From Halospina denitrificans (GTDB lineage Bacteria > Pseudomonadota > Gammaproteobacteria > Pseudomonadales > Oleiphilaceae): a stretch of DNA of 64,000 nt. How positions within the stretch are numbered: position 1 is the stretch's first letter; every line of letters begins with the position of its first letter. The notes beneath the pieces are model-generated. The model was not told where the DNA came from and searched no databases. It was given only the letters and a program-made list of their open reading frames with translations. The stretch spans positions 434,001-498,000 of the forward strand of contig NZ_SOAX01000002.1 of NCBI RefSeq assembly GCF_004364635.1, given 5' to 3'. Positions 1,030 through 38,255 of this stretch are shown here, piece by piece. A program made the position numbers and the translations under genes.

Positions 1030-2430
1030 GGTTGGTTTGTCTCCAGACGGTTGGGTTTGTGCAGGTGGCGCGATGGGGGCTCCCTTTCCGGGACCGCTGT
1101 AAACCCATCCATGGGCGCTGGCGCGATGACATCCTGTCATCGAGCCTCCCGGAAAGGGAGCCCCCACCGCACCACTTAGAGTTCATGGGAAAACGCCGCA
1201 TAAGAAACAGCAATGCATCACCAGTAAGGGGTGATAGATGTTCAACAAAGTATTGATTGCTAACCGGGGCGAGATTGCGGTTCGGGTGAATCGGACGGCG
1301 CAGTCGCTAGGATATCGGACCGTTGCCGTGTTCAGCGAAGCGGACCGGGATGCGCCGCACGTGAGCGTGGCAGATGAGGCGGTGTGTATCGGGCCGGCGT
1401 CGGCTTCGGAGTCGTATCTGAATGTGGGCGCGATCATTGAAGCGGCCCGGAAGACGGGAGCTGATGCGGTTCATCCGGGGTATGGGTTTCTTTCCGAGAA
1501 TGCGGGCTTTGTGTCGGCCTGTGCCGACAACGGCATTACCTTTATCGGGCCGCCGGCGCATGCCATGGAGCTGATGGGCTCGAAGCGGCGGTCGAAGGAG
1601 GCGATGGCTGAGGCGGGGGTGCCGACGGTTCCGGGGTTCCAGAGTTCGGAGACGGAGTCGGGGGCCTGGCAGGAGGCGGCTAATGAGATTGGGTATCCGG
1701 TGATGATCAAGGCGTCCGCCGGGGGTGGTGGGCGTGGGATGCGGTTAGTGCATGAGCCGGCGGCGCTGGCGGATGAGTTGGCGCGGGCCCGGTCGGAGGC
1801 GGAGTCGGCCTTTGGGGACGGGGAGCTGATTCTGGAGAAGGCGATTGTCCGGCCGCGGCATATTGAGATCCAGGTGTTTGCGGATCAGCAGGGTAATGCC
1901 ATTCATCTGGGGGAGCGGGACTGTTCGGTGCAGCGCCGGCACCAGAAGGTGGTGGAGGAGGCGCCTTCGCCCTTTGTTGATGAAGCCATGCGGCAGGCCA
2001 TGGGGGATGCGGCGGTTAAGGCGGCGCAGGCCTGTGGTTATGTCGGGGCCGGGACGGTTGAGTTTATTGTTGATGAGTCCGGGGCCTTTTACTTCCTGGA
2101 GATGAATACGCGGCTGCAGGTGGAGCACCCCGTTACCGAGATGGTGACGGAGCTGGATCTGGTGGCGTTGCAGCTACGGATTGCGGCCGGGGAGCCGCTG
2201 CCGCTCGTTCAGGACGAGGTCCGGATCTGCGGGCATGCGATTGAGGTGCGGCTTTACGCGGAGGATCCCGCTCAGAACTACATGCCGCAGACGGGGCCCG
2301 TTCATTGCTGGATTCCGCCTGAAGGCGACGGCATCCGGGTGGATCATGGGATTTCTGCGGGGATGCGCGTGACGCCCCATTACGACCCCATGATCGCCAA
2401 GGTGGTGGCCGGTGGTCCGGATCGTGGCAC
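430..2430. other. G/T-skewed plus-strand domain around repeat copy 1
   Basis: A roughly 2 kb block covering the 3' part of atuE, the intergenic hairpin and the first 60% of atuF is rich in G and T and poor in C and A on the plus strand. My hand count for 541-1020 plus 1261-1740 gives 408 G against 203 C. Coding frames run through it intact. The boundaries are approximate. The skew ends inside atuF, where codons revert to C-ending. Confidence 0.75.
1064..1173 (-). repeat. Long-hairpin intergenic repeat, copy 1 (inverted orientation)
   Basis: Arms 1064-1093 and 1147-1173 pair, including 19 bp without mismatch (1075-1093 with 1147-1165). The loop holds a small hairpin at 1125-1141 (7-bp arms, 3-nt loop). 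Read on the minus strand, about 61 nt of the core match copy 2 (14153-14263) with only two differences, so the copies are the same element in opposite orientation. The rest of the 208-bp gap (1030-1237) shows nothing but the weak ribosome site of atuF. No flanking target duplication is evident. Confidence 0.9.
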
Positions 2431-3226: not shown

Positions 3227-4056
3227 CGAGCACGCTTAACGGAAAAACCGTCTTCATCACCGGGGGCAGCCGCGGCATCGGACGCGCCATCGCCCTCGCC
3301 TGCGCGCGCCAGGGCGCCAACATCGTCATCGCGGCCAAGTCCGACGAACCGCACCCCAAGCTGCCCGGCACGATTCATACGGTGGCTCAGGAAGTGGAAG
3401 AAACGGGCAGCAAGGCGCTGGCACTGAAGCTCGACGTCCAGGACGAAAACCAGGTCGCCGAAGTGATGAAACAGGCCGCCGACCACTTCGGCGGCATCGA
3501 CTGCCTGGTCAACAACGCCGGCGCCATCCGCCTCCAGGGCGTGGCAGACCTGCCGGTCAAACGCTACGACCTGATGCAGTCCATCAACGCCAGAGCCGTC
3601 TTCGTCTGCAGCCAGGCCGCCCTGCCCTGGCTGAAAGAATCCGACCACGCCCACATCCTGAACCTGTCGCCCCCCATCAGCCTGAACCCCAGGTGGTTCG
3701 CCCAGAACGCCCCCTACACCGTCAGCAAGTACGGAATGTCCATGCTGACCATCGGCATGGCGGAAGAATTCCGCAAGATGCCCGTGGCGGTGAACTCACT
3801 CTGGCCACGAACCCTGGTATCCACGGCCGCCATCGAATTCGAGGTGGGCGGCCCGGACCTGATGGCCAAGGGCCGCAAACCCGAAATCATGGGCGACGCC
3901 GCCAGCGCCATCCTCCAGCGCCCGCCCACACGAACCACGGGCGAGTGCTTGATCGATGACAACGTGCTGGCGGAAGAAGGAATAACAGACCTGGAGCAAT
4001 ACCGTTACGACCCGAACGGTCCGGAATTGATGAAAGACTTTTTCCTAGACGACTAG
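3223..4056 (+). CDS. atuG: Short-chain dehydrogenase AtuG (HSDL2-like)
   Basis: A 277-residue classical SDR. The Rossmann motif TGGSRGIG lies at residues 13-20, NNAGA near residue 94, and the active-site pair as YTVSK near 165 with a preceding Ser in NLSPP. The sequence resembles the HSDL2 / AtuG subgroup rather than FabG. It starts at the ATG overlapping the atuF stop, after CCAGGAG. Genetic linkage places it in terpene catabolism, possibly acting on a hydroxyacyl or alcohol/aldehyde intermediate; the exact reaction of AtuG is not settled as far as I know. The 3' half is markedly C-rich on the coding strand, close to repeat copy 3. Confidence 0.8.
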   Translation: MTSTLNGKTVFITGGSRGIGRAIALACARQGANIVIAAKSDEPHPKLPGTIHTVAQEVEETGSKALALKLDVQDENQVAEVMKQAADHFGGIDCLVNNAGAIRLQGVADLPVKRYDLMQSINARAVFVCSQAALPWLKESDHAHILNLSPPISLNPRWFAQNAPYTVSKYGMSMLTIGMAEEFRKMPVAVNSLWPRTLVSTAAIEFEVGGPDLMAKGRKPEIMGDAASAILQRPPTRTTGECLIDDNVLAEEGITDLEQYRYDPNGPELMKDFFLDD

Positions 4057-4068
4057 CACTGAACCAGA

Positions 4069-4259
4069 GGGTCTCGGTCGGGGGCGGTAATCCGGGAAGC
4101 TCCGGAGCCATGGATGGCGGAGGGCAGCCTACATGGGTTTACGCGACTGAGCGTAAACGGGCTTACAGGATGTAAGGCCTGGACTTTTCAGCGGAGCAGG
4201 ACAGCGCAGCTGAAAAGTACTTGTGGCGATTCCCGGATTACCGCCCCCGACCGGGACCC
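4069..4259 (+). repeat. Long-hairpin intergenic repeat, copy 3 (composite)
   Basis: Outer arms 4069-4097 and 4231-4259 are 29 bp long with one difference. Inside are further hairpins: GCCA/TGGC at 4107-4118, an 8-bp stem at 4137-4144 with 4151-4158, CTTACA-GGA-TGTAAG at 4162-4176, and a perfect 10-bp stem at 4183-4192 with 4209-4218. The segment 4097-4128 is nearly identical to the loop of copy 4. It fills almost all of the 237-bp gap between atuG and atuH, both on the plus strand, so it could be transcribed inside the operon. Confidence 0.9.
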
Positions 4260-12756: not shown

Positions 12757-14076
12757 ATGAGCAGAAAACCGGTAACCACGCGAACCGGGCGCTTTTTCCG
12801 TCTCGCCGGCATGACCGGCTCCGTGGCCTCGCGCTACGCGGCCCGGCGGGCGAAGAACTGGTTCAGTGAAGACACGGAACAGAGCCGTCACGAGTACTAC
12901 AGCCAAATGGCGGAGGAAATCGTCGACACCCTGGGGGAGCTCAAGGGCGCCGTCATGAAGGTGGGCCAGATCGCCTCCCAGACCCAGGACTTCCTGCCCC
13001 GGGAACTGACCGATGCCCTGCAGCGCCTCCAGAAAGAGGCGCCGGCCATGGATTACGGGGTCATCAAAGACCAGATCGAGAGCGAACTCGGGGACCGGAT
13101 CGAGAACCTCTTCGCCGAAGTGGACGAAACCCCCTACGCCGCCGCCTCAATCGGTCAGGTCCACCGGGCACGCCTGAATGACGGCCGGGAAGTCGTCGTC
13201 AAGGTCCAGTACCCCGGCGTCGACCGCTCCTGCGACTCGGACCTGAGACAGCTCCGCACCGCCCTGCGCCTGGGCGGCCTGCTGAAAATGCCCAAGGAAA
13301 GCGTGGACGAGCTGTTCAACGAAGTCCGCGACCGCCTCCACGAGGAACTCGACTACGAGAACGAAGCCCGCAATATCGAACAGTTCGCCCGACAGCACAA
13401 GGATGACCATTGGCTGCTGATCCCGGACGTCGTCCACGAACGCTCCTCACGCCGCGTGCTCACCATGGAGAAAGTCGAAGGCGACCACATCAGCGAAGTC
13501 ACCCGGGAGCGCTACGACCAGGACACCATCAACCTCATCGGCCAGCGCATCTTCCAGGCCATGGCCGACGGCCTCTTCCGCCACCGCGCCATCCACGGCG
13601 ACCCCCACGCCGGCAACTTCGCCTACCGGCCGGACGGCACCATCATCCTCTACGACTTCGGCTGCATCAAAAACCTGCGCCCATCCACCGTCGAAGCCTA
13701 CCGCAACTGCATCATCGACGCCCTGGATGAAAACTACCGATCCCTGGACCAACACCTCATCCACCTCGGCGCCCGAGTCGAAGACCACCCCCCGGTAGAC
13801 CCCGACTACTACGCCATGTGGCGCAACATCCTCTACCAACCCTTCGCCCCGGAAAACCAACCCTACGACTTCGCCCAATCCGACCTCCACCAACAGGTAG
13901 CGGCCAACACCCACACCGTCTTCAAACACCTAAACGCCTTCAAACCCCCGGTCGAAAGCATCCTCATCGACCGCATGGTCGCCGGCCACTACTGGATGCT
14001 CAAACGCCTGGGCGTAAAAACCGATTTCCGGCCGCTGCTGGAGGAATACATCAAAAAGGAAGAAACAGCAGAATAG
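12757..14076 (+). CDS. ABC1/AarF/UbiB-type atypical kinase
   Basis: 439 residues of the ABC1 (ADCK/UbiB) family. The family-specific KxGQ motif appears as MKVGQIASQ near residue 66, the Ala-rich nucleotide loop as YAAASIGQVHRA near 127, the catalytic loop as HGDPHAGNF near 282 and the metal-binding DFG near 300. No clear C-terminal transmembrane pair as in true UbiB is visible, so it is a paralog whose role in quinone or lipid metabolism is uncertain. The last 500 bp are unusually C-rich and G-poor on the coding strand, bordering repeat copy 2. Confidence 0.88.
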   Translation: MSRKPVTTRTGRFFRLAGMTGSVASRYAARRAKNWFSEDTEQSRHEYYSQMAEEIVDTLGELKGAVMKVGQIASQTQDFLPRELTDALQRLQKEAPAMDYGVIKDQIESELGDRIENLFAEVDETPYAAASIGQVHRARLNDGREVVVKVQYPGVDRSCDSDLRQLRTALRLGGLLKMPKESVDELFNEVRDRLHEELDYENEARNIEQFARQHKDDHWLLIPDVVHERSSRRVLTMEKVEGDHISEVTRERYDQDTINLIGQRIFQAMADGLFRHRAIHGDPHAGNFAYRPDGTIILYDFGCIKNLRPSTVEAYRNCIIDALDENYRSLDQHLIHLGARVEDHPPVDPDYYAMWRNILYQPFAPENQPYDFAQSDLHQQVAANTHTVFKHLNAFKPPVESILIDRMVAGHYWMLKRLGVKTDFRPLLEEYIKKEETAE

Positions 14077-14650
14077 GCGCATGCCAAACAGATGCAGCCT
14101 GAGGAATAAAGCTTTTTTGGAGATCCAGGAAGCGCCCCGCACCCACCACGAAGTGGCACGGCGGGGGCTCCCTTTCAGGGAGGCTCGATGACAGGATGTC
14201 ATCGCGCCAGCGCCCAGGGATGGGTTCACAGCGGTCCCTGAAAGGGAGCCCCCGCCGTGCCACCCGCACCAACCCTGAAGGCTAGGAGCAACTCACTCGG
14301 AGTCGATCAATTTCCCGGGATTCATAATGCCGTTAGGATCAAACACCCTCTTGATCCCCTTCATAACAGCAATCTCCGCCTCACTCTTCGTATACCCAAG
14401 ATACTTCTTCTTGACCATACCAACCCCATGCTCGGCAGAAACACTCCCCTCATACCGCTCAACAATCCCAAACACCAGATCATTCACCGTCTCACACCGC
14501 CTGAAGAACTCCGCCTTCTCCATGTCCTCCGGCTTGAGAATGTTCAGATGCAGATTGCCGTCCCCGATGTGCCCGAACCACACAATCTCAAAGTCCGGAT
14601 ACTCCTTCTGCACCACCGAATCAATCTCCTGCAGGAACTCCGGCACCCGG
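13550..14650. other. C/A-skewed plus-strand domain around repeat copy 2
   Basis: Flanking the 14153-14263 hairpin, the plus strand is rich in C and A and poor in G on both sides, although the left gene is on the plus strand and the right gene on the minus strand. My hand count for 13681-14040 plus 14281-14640 gives 279 C against 122 G. Gene direction therefore cannot explain it. Limits are approximate. Confidence 0.75.
14153..14263 (+). repeat. Long-hairpin intergenic repeat, copy 2
   Basis: Arms 14153-14181 and 14235-14263 form a perfect 29-bp inverted repeat. The loop carries GATGACA-GGA-TGTCATC and a second small stem around CCCAGGGATGGG. Its core is the reverse complement of copy 1 with two differences, and the inner part of the stem is also similar. 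It lies between the convergent ABC1 kinase and D-2-hydroxyglutarate dehydrogenase genes, where it could stop transcription from both sides, though no T-run follows either arm. Confidence 0.92.
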
Positions 14651-15702
14651 GAAACCCGCACGGACAGATCATTCTTGTAGGGCGTACGCGGCGCAATCGA
14701 CTCCGAAATCCGCTCACGCAGCTGCCACAGTTTCTCGGCCTGGGCCTCGCTCTGACTGATTACGCCATCCAGCACCCAGCCGGACTCCACGCACTGCTCA
14801 AAGATCCCCATGGCCTCCTCCAGCACGCCATCGGAAATCGCCTCGAACTCCAGCAGCGCGTAATACGGCGCTTCCGTCTCGAATGGCGACTGGACCTCCG
14901 CATGCTGCTGCACATGCTGGATCGCTTCATGGGAGAAAAACTCATACGCGGTCAGATCCAGCTTGTTCCGGAATGCCTGAAGCACATCCATGGTATTGGT
15001 CAGGTCATTGAGCCCCAACACCATCACCGTCAGCCCCGTCGGCTGGCGCGTGAGCTTCATGGTCGCTTCCGTGATGAAACCCAGGGTCCCCTCGCCGCCG
15101 ATGAACAGCTGGCGCAGGTCGTAACCCGTGTTGTTCTTCTCCAGCCCCCTGTTCAGCTCCAGGATCTCGCCACTGCCGGTCACCACCTTAAGCCCGGCCA
15201 CCCAGTCACGGCTCATGCCGTAGCGGATCACCTTGATGCCGCCGGCGTTGGTCGAGAGGTTGCCCCCAAGCTGACTGGAGCCGGCGGAGGCAAAATCCAC
15301 CGGGTAATACAGATCCTGCTCCTCGGCAAAGTTCTGAAGCTGCTCGGTCACAACCCCCGCCTGGCACTGGACGATACGGTCACTGGCATTGAAATCCAGG
15401 ATCTGGTTCATGCGGTCAAACGCCACCACCAGCTCGCCATTCGCGGCAACAGCACCCGCACTGAGGCCGGTACGCCCACCCGAAGGCACCAGCGCCATAT
15501 GCTGCTCGTTCGCAAACCGAACAATCGCCTGCACTTCTTCCGTGCTCTTGGGCAGCACGACCGCGATGGGCGCCGGTTCATAGATGCGTGTCCAGTCGCA
15601 GCCGTAGGATGCAAGGTCGTCAGGCGCCGTGAGAACCTTGCCCCCGTCGGTCAGCAGTGACTCAAGAGTTTGCGGATCAAAAGCTGTGCCCGTGCTACTC
15701 AT
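14293..15702 (-). CDS. FAD-linked D-2-hydroxyglutarate dehydrogenase-like oxidase
   Basis: 469 residues. The N-terminal FAD-binding (PCMH-type) domain has PSGGRTGLSAGA near residue 78 and SAGSSQLGGNLSTNAGG near 140; the C-terminal FAD-oxidase domain has GHIGDGNLHLN near 390 and SAEHGVGMVKKKYL near 430. Start 15702 (MSSTGT) is preferred to a 35-residue upstream extension because it has an AGAGGA site and matches the family start. In Pseudomonas this enzyme recycles the D-2-hydroxyglutarate that SerA makes while turning 2-oxoglutarate over. Divergence from serA supports that role. The 3' end is strongly skewed (C-rich plus strand) beside repeat copy 2. Confidence 0.85.
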   Translation of the reverse strand: MSSTGTAFDPQTLESLLTDGGKVLTAPDDLASYGCDWTRIYEPAPIAVVLPKSTEEVQAIVRFANEQHMALVPSGGRTGLSAGAVAANGELVVAFDRMNQILDFNASDRIVQCQAGVVTEQLQNFAEEQDLYYPVDFASAGSSQLGGNLSTNAGGIKVIRYGMSRDWVAGLKVVTGSGEILELNRGLEKNNTGYDLRQLFIGGEGTLGFITEATMKLTRQPTGLTVMVLGLNDLTNTMDVLQAFRNKLDLTAYEFFSHEAIQHVQQHAEVQSPFETEAPYYALLEFEAISDGVLEEAMGIFEQCVESGWVLDGVISQSEAQAEKLWQLRERISESIAPRTPYKNDLSVRVSRVPEFLQEIDSVVQKEYPDFEIVWFGHIGDGNLHLNILKPEDMEKAEFFRRCETVNDLVFGIVERYEGSVSAEHGVGMVKKKYLGYTKSEAEIAVMKGIKRVFDPNGIMNPGKLIDSE

Positions 15703-15762
15703 AGACTCGGAAATCCTCTGATGTCTGTTCAAAATCCGATCAAAAATCGGGAAATTCTGGGG

Positions 15763-15780
15763 AGCTATGCTACCATAGCT
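15763..15780. promoter_or_regulatory. Inverted repeat between divergent dehydrogenase gene and serA
   Basis: AGCTATG-CTAC-CATAGCT is a perfect 7-bp inverted repeat with a 4-bp spacer, in the 159-bp gap shared by the FAD dehydrogenase (-) and serA (+). A second, shorter palindrome CCGAT-CAAAA-ATCGG is at 15736-15750. The first looks like a dimeric regulator operator; the regulator is unknown and no regulator gene lies alongside. Confidence 0.5.
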
Positions 15781-15861
15781 GTTCCCAGGATGCGGCCAAT
15801 GCCGCAACTAATTGATTTTCCTTCATTTTTTTCGAAAACCTGATTAAATCTGGATTCTGTC

Positions 15862-19315: not shown

Positions 19316-19448
19316 GTGAAGAAGGAAGGAGGGGCGAGGGCACACTGTCAGGGAAGCTCCGGAGCCATGGATGGCGGAGGGCAGCGTACAGGGACGTATT
19401 CACAGCGTTTCCCTGACAGTGTGCCCTCGCCCCTCCTTCCTTCTTCAC
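19316..19448 (+). repeat. Long-hairpin intergenic repeat, copy 4 (39-bp perfect stem)
   Basis: Arms 19316-19354 and 19410-19448 form a 39-bp inverted repeat without a mismatch, around a 55-nt loop. The loop start (AGCTCCGGAGCCATGGATGG and following) is shared with copy 3; its end, GTACAGGGACGTA then TTCACAGCGT, parallels the end of copies 1 and 2. The stem sequence is unrelated to the other copies. It lies between the convergent permease and OmpA genes. Confidence 0.93.
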
Positions 19449-36540: not shown

Positions 36541-38255
36541 TACAGGGTTGAGTTGGATGGCACGTCCTCGCCGTGGGTCCTGCTGAACGACGACTGTATT
36601 TTTGCGGCTGCAGCCTCATTACCCAGCTTTCGATGCACGCTGACCAGGGTATCGGCAATGTTGGCATCATACGGGGCCAGCTCATGGGCCCGCTCTGCCA
36701 GTTCCAGTCCTTCCTCCGGACGATCCAGCCGTGCCAGAGTCGCGGCAGCCTGCTTCAGCGCATAGGGAGAATCCGGTTCCTGCTCCAGAAAACGCTCGTA
36801 CTGAAGCAGCGCCGATGCCGGATTCCCCAGCTCGTTATAGAGATCGCCGAGCCGCACCTGCAGCTCCGGCAGTTCCGGATGTCGAATTACGGCATTCTCA
36901 TAGGTGGCCAGAGCTTCAGCATGGTCGCCCTGGTGAAAATGAATGTCAGCAATCTCCAGACGGGGCGCCAGCAGTTTCGGGTAGTCGCGGACAAGGGCCT
37001 CAAGGGTATGGACGGCTTCATCGGCTCTCTCCATCTTCCCGTACGCCCGCCCGAGGACCAGACGCCCAAACGCGGACGCCTTCAGGTTTCCCACCGGCTC
37101 CGAAAGCGATAATGCCAGTTCCGGAAACCCCTGATTCAGATAAAGCTGAGCGGTGACCACAGCCACAAGCTCCTGATTATAATCGGCCTCGCTCATGGGC
37201 GAGGACCCAACCAGCCCGGACAGCGACAGCAACGGCCGCTGGAGGTCAAGCCAGACGGGAGAACCGGCTTTCAGCGTATGCTGCACGCCATCGTTCCCGG
37301 ATTCATTGGTCATCAGGCTGGCGGCCAGGATGGTCGACAGGGGCGCATCCCGGGTGTCCGCATTATTCAGGACGCTGCGCGCCTGGTCGATACGCTCCCG
37401 GGCAATATCGCACAGCGCCCGCCCGACCACGGCGTCATCGCCCCACTCCGAATACCGGCCCAGCGCTGAAAACGCCTCGTGCGCCCGTTCATAATGGCCG
37501 GTGGCAAACTCGCTCAGTGCGATATTGGACAGGGCGGCGGGGTTCGGCGCGCGTTCCCTGAAGGTACGTGTTTTGGCCAGGGCCTTTTGGGGTTGATTGA
37601 GCTTGAGGTAGGCCGTGCTGGCAACGGTAAGCGCGCCGCGATGCTCCGCATATTGATCCAAGAGCCGTTCTGCATGATCGGCCGCTTCCGGGAAGCGACC
37701 GCTGACGAGGTGAGTGCGTGCCAGGCCCAGGCGTGCCCCTTCATGCCGTGGCGCCTGCTCCAGAGCCTTTTCGTAGTTAACGACCGCAAGGTCCATGCGA
37801 TTGCCCTGATGATGCAGATCCCCTGCCAATACGTAGAGGTCGGTGGTTTTCGCCTCCGGTTGCAAGTTCCCGAAATGCCTCAACGCAGCCTCACTGCGTC
37901 CGTCCCGCGCATAAAGCGTCATCAGTGACGACCGTATGGACTGCGCAATATCAGGGAAACGCGCATCCAGTTCGCGAAGGTGGCGATCAATCGCCGTGTG
38001 TCCACCCTGTCCGTACCAGGCCAACACAAGAATCAGGTGGGCTCGCTCATCCTTTGGTGCCAGGCGCGCGTACTCCTCGCCCAGCGAGATTGCTTCCTGA
38101 TAACGCTCATTCTCAAGCGCTTCAATACCAGGCCGGTATTGCGACGGTGGCTGCGGAAAAAACCGATCAATGACCAGAGCATGGGCTGATGAGAGCGTCA
38201 ACAGCATCAGTGCCAGTAAAGCAGCAGAACTACGAATGCGCATACGCTTTCCCAT
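36537..38255 (-). CDS. Secreted tetratricopeptide-repeat protein
   Basis: 572 residues from ATG 38255. A signal peptide (AALLALMLLTLSSAHA) points to export. The rest is a chain of TPR-like repeats, clearest at residues 130-240 (GDLHHQGNRMDLAVVNYEKALEQAP type) and 400-540. No enzyme motif is seen. Start uncertain: ATG 38243 is also plausible and neither has a strong ribosome site. It lies 181 bp after cydC on the same strand and is convergent with the antiporter locus. Role unknown; probably a scaffold or an envelope assembly factor. Confidence 0.75.
   Translation of the reverse strand: MGKRMRIRSSAALLALMLLTLSSAHALVIDRFFPQPPSQYRPGIEALENERYQEAISLGEEYARLAPKDERAHLILVLAWYGQGGHTAIDRHLRELDARFPDIAQSIRSSLMTLYARDGRSEAALRHFGNLQPEAKTTDLYVLAGDLHHQGNRMDLAVVNYEKALEQAPRHEGARLGLARTHLVSGRFPEAADHAERLLDQYAEHRGALTVASTAYLKLNQPQKALAKTRTFRERAPNPAALSNIALSEFATGHYERAHEAFSALGRYSEWGDDAVVGRALCDIARERIDQARSVLNNADTRDAPLSTILAASLMTNESGNDGVQHTLKAGSPVWLDLQRPLLSLSGLVGSSPMSEADYNQELVAVVTAQLYLNQGFPELALSLSEPVGNLKASAFGRLVLGRAYGKMERADEAVHTLEALVRDYPKLLAPRLEIADIHFHQGDHAEALATYENAVIRHPELPELQVRLGDLYNELGNPASALLQYERFLEQEPDSPYALKQAAATLARLDRPEEGLELAERAHELAPYDANIADTLVSVHRKLGNEAAAAKIQSSFSRTHGEDVPSNSTLY

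Follow-up and report, generated by a model that had tools for sequence, protein, structure and literature searches.

Strand composition bias in bacteria is usually read as a footprint of replication or of transcription. Replication-strand skew is one of the closest described parallels to the pattern reported here, in that one strand is enriched in C and A over G and T, most strongly at synonymous sites; the effect around the hairpin repeat differs from it in being kilobase-scale, centred on the repeat, signed by repeat orientation and dominated by G-to-C change. The repeat skew follows neither the direction of replication, as replication-strand skew does, nor that of genes, as a transcription or codon-usage effect would, and the C-to-T and A-to-G changes typical of deamination are not the main changes in the repeat flanks.

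Several families of short elements share features with the repeat. Like the REP/REPIN/RAYT (TnpA-REP) elements, it consists of scattered intergenic palindromes in about 100 copies that often form inverted pairs, but it is a 130-bp element with variable arms and a conserved core, and we know of no flanking skew in REP/REPIN/RAYT systems. TwoAYGGAY RNA (Rfam RF01731) likewise has GGA-loop hairpins inside an outer stem, although the hairpin repeats score below the gathering threshold and are long, near-perfect, dispersed DNA palindromes; no flanking skew is reported for this family in the open-access sources read. Quasipalindrome correction by template switching also keeps arms near-perfectly complementary while they diverge, but it acts within the palindrome, whereas the repeat effect also reaches DNA more than 1 kb away. 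Oriented sites such as USS/DUS and Chi-like sequences are short and could fix a donor strand or direction, whereas the hairpin repeat is two-sided, hairpin-based and low in copy number. No precedent for a repeat-centred strand skew was found in the open-access literature, and no known system that we tested accounts for it.

Copy 2 and the structure of the repeat

The window, i.e., the whole 64,000-nucleotide stretch of DNA that was analysed (G000:C2:434001-498000), comes from the 3.32-Mb genome of Halospina denitrificans, whose closest named relatives are Halovibrio salipaludis and strains labelled Vreelandella utahensis. Copy 2 of the repeat lies between convergent UbiB/ABC1-like (+) and GlcD-like (-) genes, and the features of its locus and the other copies in the window are as follows.

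1053..1177, - strand: copy 1, type A, reverse orientation; + strand flanks G/T-rich
4069..4259, + strand: variant copy, long core with extra hairpins; flanks C/A-rich on +
12757..14076, + strand: UbiB/ABC1-like gene, overlapping the left flank of copy 2
12950..14150, + strand: left skewed flank, C/A-rich on + (approximate, extent per genome-wide profile)
14151..14275, + strand: copy 2, hairpin repeat with type A core; 29-bp perfect arms, 53-nt spacer
14153..14181, + strand: 5' arm of copy 2, G-rich; perfect inverted repeat with 14235-14263
14187..14203, + strand: core hairpin 1, GATG-ACAGGATGT-CATC, loop GGA, CsrA-site-like (sequence and fold)
14213..14224, + strand: core hairpin 2, CCCAGGGATGGG, loop GGA (sequence)
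starts 14215, + strand: orientation-defining motif CANGGAYGNNTTYACRGCG of core hairpin 2
14235..14263, + strand: 3' arm of copy 2, C-rich; perfect inverted repeat with 14153-14181
14276..14980, + strand: right skewed flank, C/A-rich on + (approximate, extent per genome-wide profile)
14293..15807, - strand: GlcD-like FAD oxidase gene, overlapping the right flank of copy 2
19316..19448, + strand: copy with type B core; flanks C/A-rich on +

The first-pass annotation had reported a C-rich plus strand on both sides of copy 2, and its counts were reproduced exactly: 279 C versus 122 G in 13681-14040 plus 14281-14640 (where we also count 183 A versus 136 T), and 15 A and 7 T in 13861-13920. Its reading of copy 2 as opposite in orientation to copy 1, and of the left and right genes as lying on the plus and minus strands, was borne out, and so was its claim that every copy in the window carries the predicted sign. 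In a strand- and codon-corrected scan, z was -10.2 at 13675 and -8.4 at 14700 for copy 2, and the flanks scored +10.3/+8.8 for copy 1, -6.0/-5.8 for the copy at 4.2 kb and -6.3/-5.7 for that at 19.4 kb. The copy 2 locus taken alone is nonetheless poor evidence, because part of its right-hand skew is present independently in relatives without the repeat. In the terminal 250 bp of the right gene, GC skew on the gene strand is +0.46 in the own genome and already +0.24 to +0.28 in three relatives that lack copy 2 (L109, L110, L112), with +0.28 in one that has it (L111). The repeat thus accounts for only about half of the right-hand skew at this locus.

The repeat arms (median 29 bp) are 98.9% complementary, yet only 58% identical between copies. 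A difference between copies at one arm base is accompanied by a difference at its pairing partner in 98.7% of cases, G.T wobbles account for 15 of 2411 arm pairs, and 88% of arm substitutions between orthologs are fully compensated. The arms thus diverge in concert while remaining complementary, as in inverted repeats whose arms are homogenised by template switching (comparison cases in PMC8604942 and PMC8794818). Judged from the sequences, complementarity this strict points to DNA synthesis templated on the hairpin (template switching) and not only to selection on RNA, which would imply that the repeat is recurrently single-stranded or extruded.

The core has the TwoAYGGAY architecture, with two GGA-loop hairpins (AYGGAY-type loops) within the outer stem. 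The best score against the RF01731 covariance model was 32.4 bits (one copy) versus a gathering threshold of 43, and neither TwoAYGGAY RNA nor any other known RNA family was found at the gathering threshold in the window or in 20 further loci. CsrA binding has been proposed for the TwoAYGGAY family (PMC4333381). The GGA hairpins of the core resemble CsrA sites in sequence, a possible likeness to CsrA/RsmA-sequestering sRNAs of the CsrB/RsmZ type. The long-core variants (window 4069-4259; L073:7801-7991) bear extra hairpins, e.g., GTTTACGC..GCGTAAAC, CTTACAGGATGTAAG and CTTTTCAGC..GCTGAAAAG, and look as if GGA-hairpin modules had been added within the same arms. No match to the Y1 transposase (PF01797) was detected in the genomes that show the effect (G000, G001 and G003), and RAYT/HUH nicking was rejected as an initiator on this ground.

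Skew around repeat copies in the genome and its relatives

The repeat is dispersed, with about 100 copies in the genome. A core pattern search allowing up to two mismatches gave 121 matches in the own genome versus 16 with a control pattern, and filtering left 84 copies on stretches of that genome totalling ~0.75 Mb (69 with a type-B and 15 with a type-A core), 54 of them isolated. On the repeat's own strand, which bears the CANGGAYG core, C and A are in excess and G and T in deficit over a stretch reaching about 1.2 kb to the left and 0.7 kb to the right. Near GC skew on this strand was negative, as predicted, in 76 of the 84 copies and in 52 of the 54 isolated ones (binomial p = 1.6e-13). 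For type-B copies, mean GC skew was -0.10 to -0.14 on the left within 750 bp, and -0.17 (0-250), -0.10 (250-500) and -0.04 (500-750) on the right, against a background of about -0.01 beyond the flanks; type-A copies behaved similarly, and AT skew was positive on both sides of the repeat. The proposed correlation of orientation and sign therefore holds over many copies, the proposed fall-off with distance is supported by the genome-wide profile, and the observation is confirmed, in a form much stronger than a first reading from sequence alone could know.

Most wrong-sign copies belong to opposite-orientation pairs about 120-650 bp apart. In close pairs of this kind, i.e., L066 (C8), L105 (C3), L061 and L062 (C6), and L100 and L096 (C2), the skews do not simply cancel, and in several of them one orientation dominates the whole region. 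One further minus-strand copy with wrong-sign flanks (L108, near 6027) may owe its exception to a plus-strand variant that the pattern had missed, about 2.3 kb away at 3678-3788 and itself strongly skewed. Stem energy showed no clear correlation with skew, and stem stability was rejected as its driver.

Neither genes nor replication explain the sign. Near repeats, GC skew at third codon positions moves from about -0.12 to -0.35 in plus-strand genes and from about +0.09 to -0.23 in minus-strand genes, with little movement at first and second positions. At four-fold sites, C and G start from 0.41 each; between about -1250 and +700, C climbs to ~0.57 and G drops to 0.23-0.29. The amplitude is equal whatever the direction of the neighbouring genes, and control 3' gene ends without repeats showed no skew shift; as both gene directions shift alike, codon usage and gene direction are out as causes. 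Replication direction is out as well, since copies in the majority and minority chromosomal orientations have equal amplitude (-0.138 versus -0.133). The earlier proposition that the sign on either flank follows from the orientation of the repeat, irrespective of gene direction and chromosomal orientation, thus stands. A blind scan for strand-corrected skew peaks (|z| of at least 5) gave 104 peaks, 84 of which had a known copy no more than 1.2 kb away, and inspection of remote peaks uncovered five variant repeats missed by the pattern, all five with the predicted sign. Peaks with |z| of 5 to 9.7 away from known copies lay at L064:8625, L064:4525, L097:2225, L074:925 and window positions 36950 and 39450. 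That at L097:2225 lies some 600 bp from a variant repeat, and no palindrome was found in the regions inspected near those in L064 and L074 and at window 36950/39450.

Two congeners have the same skew profile, G001 with 30 copies and G003 with 27 of 27 copies negative at 0-250. Orthologous flanks from G001 were compared pairwise with the own genome, so that gain and loss are unpolarised by an outgroup. At 19 loci that lack the repeat in G001, mean skew was -0.036 there versus -0.165 in the own genome, with the empty ortholog less skewed in all 19, and at 13 loci with the repeat in both genomes in the same orientation it was -0.127 (G001) and -0.144 (own). An opposite-orientation copy occurred nearby in three orthologous loci, too few to judge and clearly at the same site only in L073 (own -0.236, relative -0.100). 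Between these two genomes, skew goes with the presence of the repeat. In four genomes from other genera or families with repeats of the same core (G051, G024, G041 and G039), the skew was absent or weak; the repeat alone is therefore insufficient, and either a lineage-specific factor is needed or the copies in those genera and families are younger. The repeats of G051 (another family; L191, L247-L275) are near-identical, with conserved arms and ends ACTAGTAA..TTACTACCG, and resemble a recently spread MITE; this genome has nine Y1 transposase matches. In G041 and G039 (two other families; L355-L394), many copies are arranged as inverted pairs, a minus copy being followed by a plus copy at a spacing of about 200 bp.

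Overall, our data show that in this genus a strand-asymmetric bias in substitutions, with C and A gained and G and T lost on the core-bearing strand, goes with the orientation of the repeat and is found only where the repeat is present.

Substitutions near the repeats

The substitution spectrum was taken at four-fold sites on the repeat strand in empty/filled loci compared with G001, the changes being unpolarised. G-to-C reached 0.44-0.49 per relative G near repeats versus a background of ~0.27, and T-to-C 0.54-0.65 versus ~0.34; C-to-G fell to 0.10-0.16 versus ~0.24 and C-to-T to ~0.03 versus ~0.06, with almost no change in G-to-A. Divergence was not raised at empty/filled sites (0.473 near versus 0.454 far), and at shared sites it was 0.378 near versus 0.377 far. 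Adding G-to-C to a transitions-only model improved the fit by a 2 delta lnL of 232.7 at empty/filled loci (locus bootstrap 112-341) and of 39.9 at shared loci (bootstrap 10-389). Deamination alone firmly fails to explain this spectrum. The interpretation first attached to the locus thus survives in part: its orientation rule and distance decay hold, and its proposed cause, exposure of one strand to C-to-T and A-to-G change, does not, as G-to-A hardly rises and G-to-C and T-to-C are the largest changes.

A three-parameter preference model, with C and A favoured and G worst, fits as well as twelve free rates, its fitted strength being ~0.6 at shared loci versus ~2 at empty/filled loci. Its advantage over a model of raised G-to-A, T-to-C and G-to-C rates was not robust under locus resampling, and we therefore propose a fixation-type bias toward C and A only tentatively.

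Explanations for the orientation-dependent bias

The explanation we favour, with a probability of roughly 0.5, is that recurrent hairpin extrusion directs strand-specific DNA processing, with the bias arising at resynthesis or mismatch correction and not by deamination alone. Mechanistically, the repeat would recurrently extrude as a hairpin, which would start a single-strand gap or a strand exchange, through a putative initiating enzyme, with the same strand always treated alike; bias would then enter when the tract is resynthesised or its mismatches are corrected. As the skew is independent of genes and replication, the process would be directed to one strand by the repeat itself, and its ~1-kb scale on both sides would fit a processed single-strand tract. 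The single sign on both flanks argues against two-ended resection of a double-strand break and against origin-like bidirectional synthesis, either of which would leave the two sides of the repeat with opposite signs. We lean toward biased mismatch correction or gene conversion with a fixed donor strand as the form of the bias, and mutagenic resynthesis with a G-to-C component would do almost as well. C.C mismatches escape mismatch repair, and G.G and G.T do not, so that with a fixed donor strand C would be favoured most and A next, as observed. The fuller proposal that the dispersed hairpin is a strand-choosing gap or recombination site, with orientation-locked conversion toward C and A over ~2 kb independent of replication and transcription, is possible but has less than even odds in our judgement.

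In a special case of hairpin-directed processing, the repeat would mark imported homologous single strands for uptake or recombination, with the donor strand fixed and mismatch repair biasing conversion. Such a signal would account for both flanks, the length scale, the lineage specificity and the strong G/C asymmetry, and a strand preference is reported for gonococcal transformation with single strands (PMC12061091); we nevertheless regard it as improbable, given that the copies number only about 100 and that the Pasteurellaceae-type uptake 9-mer AAGTGCGGT (122 sites) has no flanking skew in G308. We give similarly low odds to selection for low G and U in repeat-sense RNA (unstructured or Rho-loading), which the base preferences of the three-parameter model would suit and for which the flank RNA is indeed less structured (MFE -45.3 versus -52.5). 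That reduction does not go beyond composition (z -0.56 near, -0.47 far), the effect also occurs inside genes antisense to the repeat, up to 1.2 kb off, and T is not favoured, contrary to what Rho sites require.

Two accounts invoke exposure of the complementary strand. Transcription through the repeat on that strand, exposing it and biasing its mutation, would yield one sign on both sides, but it is quite improbable in view of an amplitude that is indifferent to neighbouring gene direction, a profile with the repeat at its centre and a fall-off to either side, without a promoter-like start, and a spectrum unlike that of deamination. If the complementary strand stayed persistently single-stranded (in open DNA or an R-loop) and underwent no change other than C-to-T and A-to-G deamination, the GC and AT skew signs would come out right on both flanks; the nearly flat G-to-A, the dominance of G-to-C, the better fit once G-to-C is added and the unraised divergence make this account highly improbable. 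Preferential insertion of the repeat into already skewed DNA could draw on the right-hand skew of copy 2 that repeat-less relatives share, but the G001 empty orthologs are nearly unskewed, all 19 differing in the same direction, which refutes it as a general explanation and leaves it with practically no probability.

Around these copies, a short dispersed repeat sets strand composition locally, with a sign given by its own orientation, and its dozens of natural replicates, together with empty-site controls, can serve to study how one-strand processing shapes base composition. Hairpin-directed processing would mean that intergenic hairpins host a strand-specific DNA transaction that has gone unrecognised, and the fuller proposal of orientation-locked conversion, if true, would constitute a local, repeat-encoded evolutionary force on bacterial synonymous sites.
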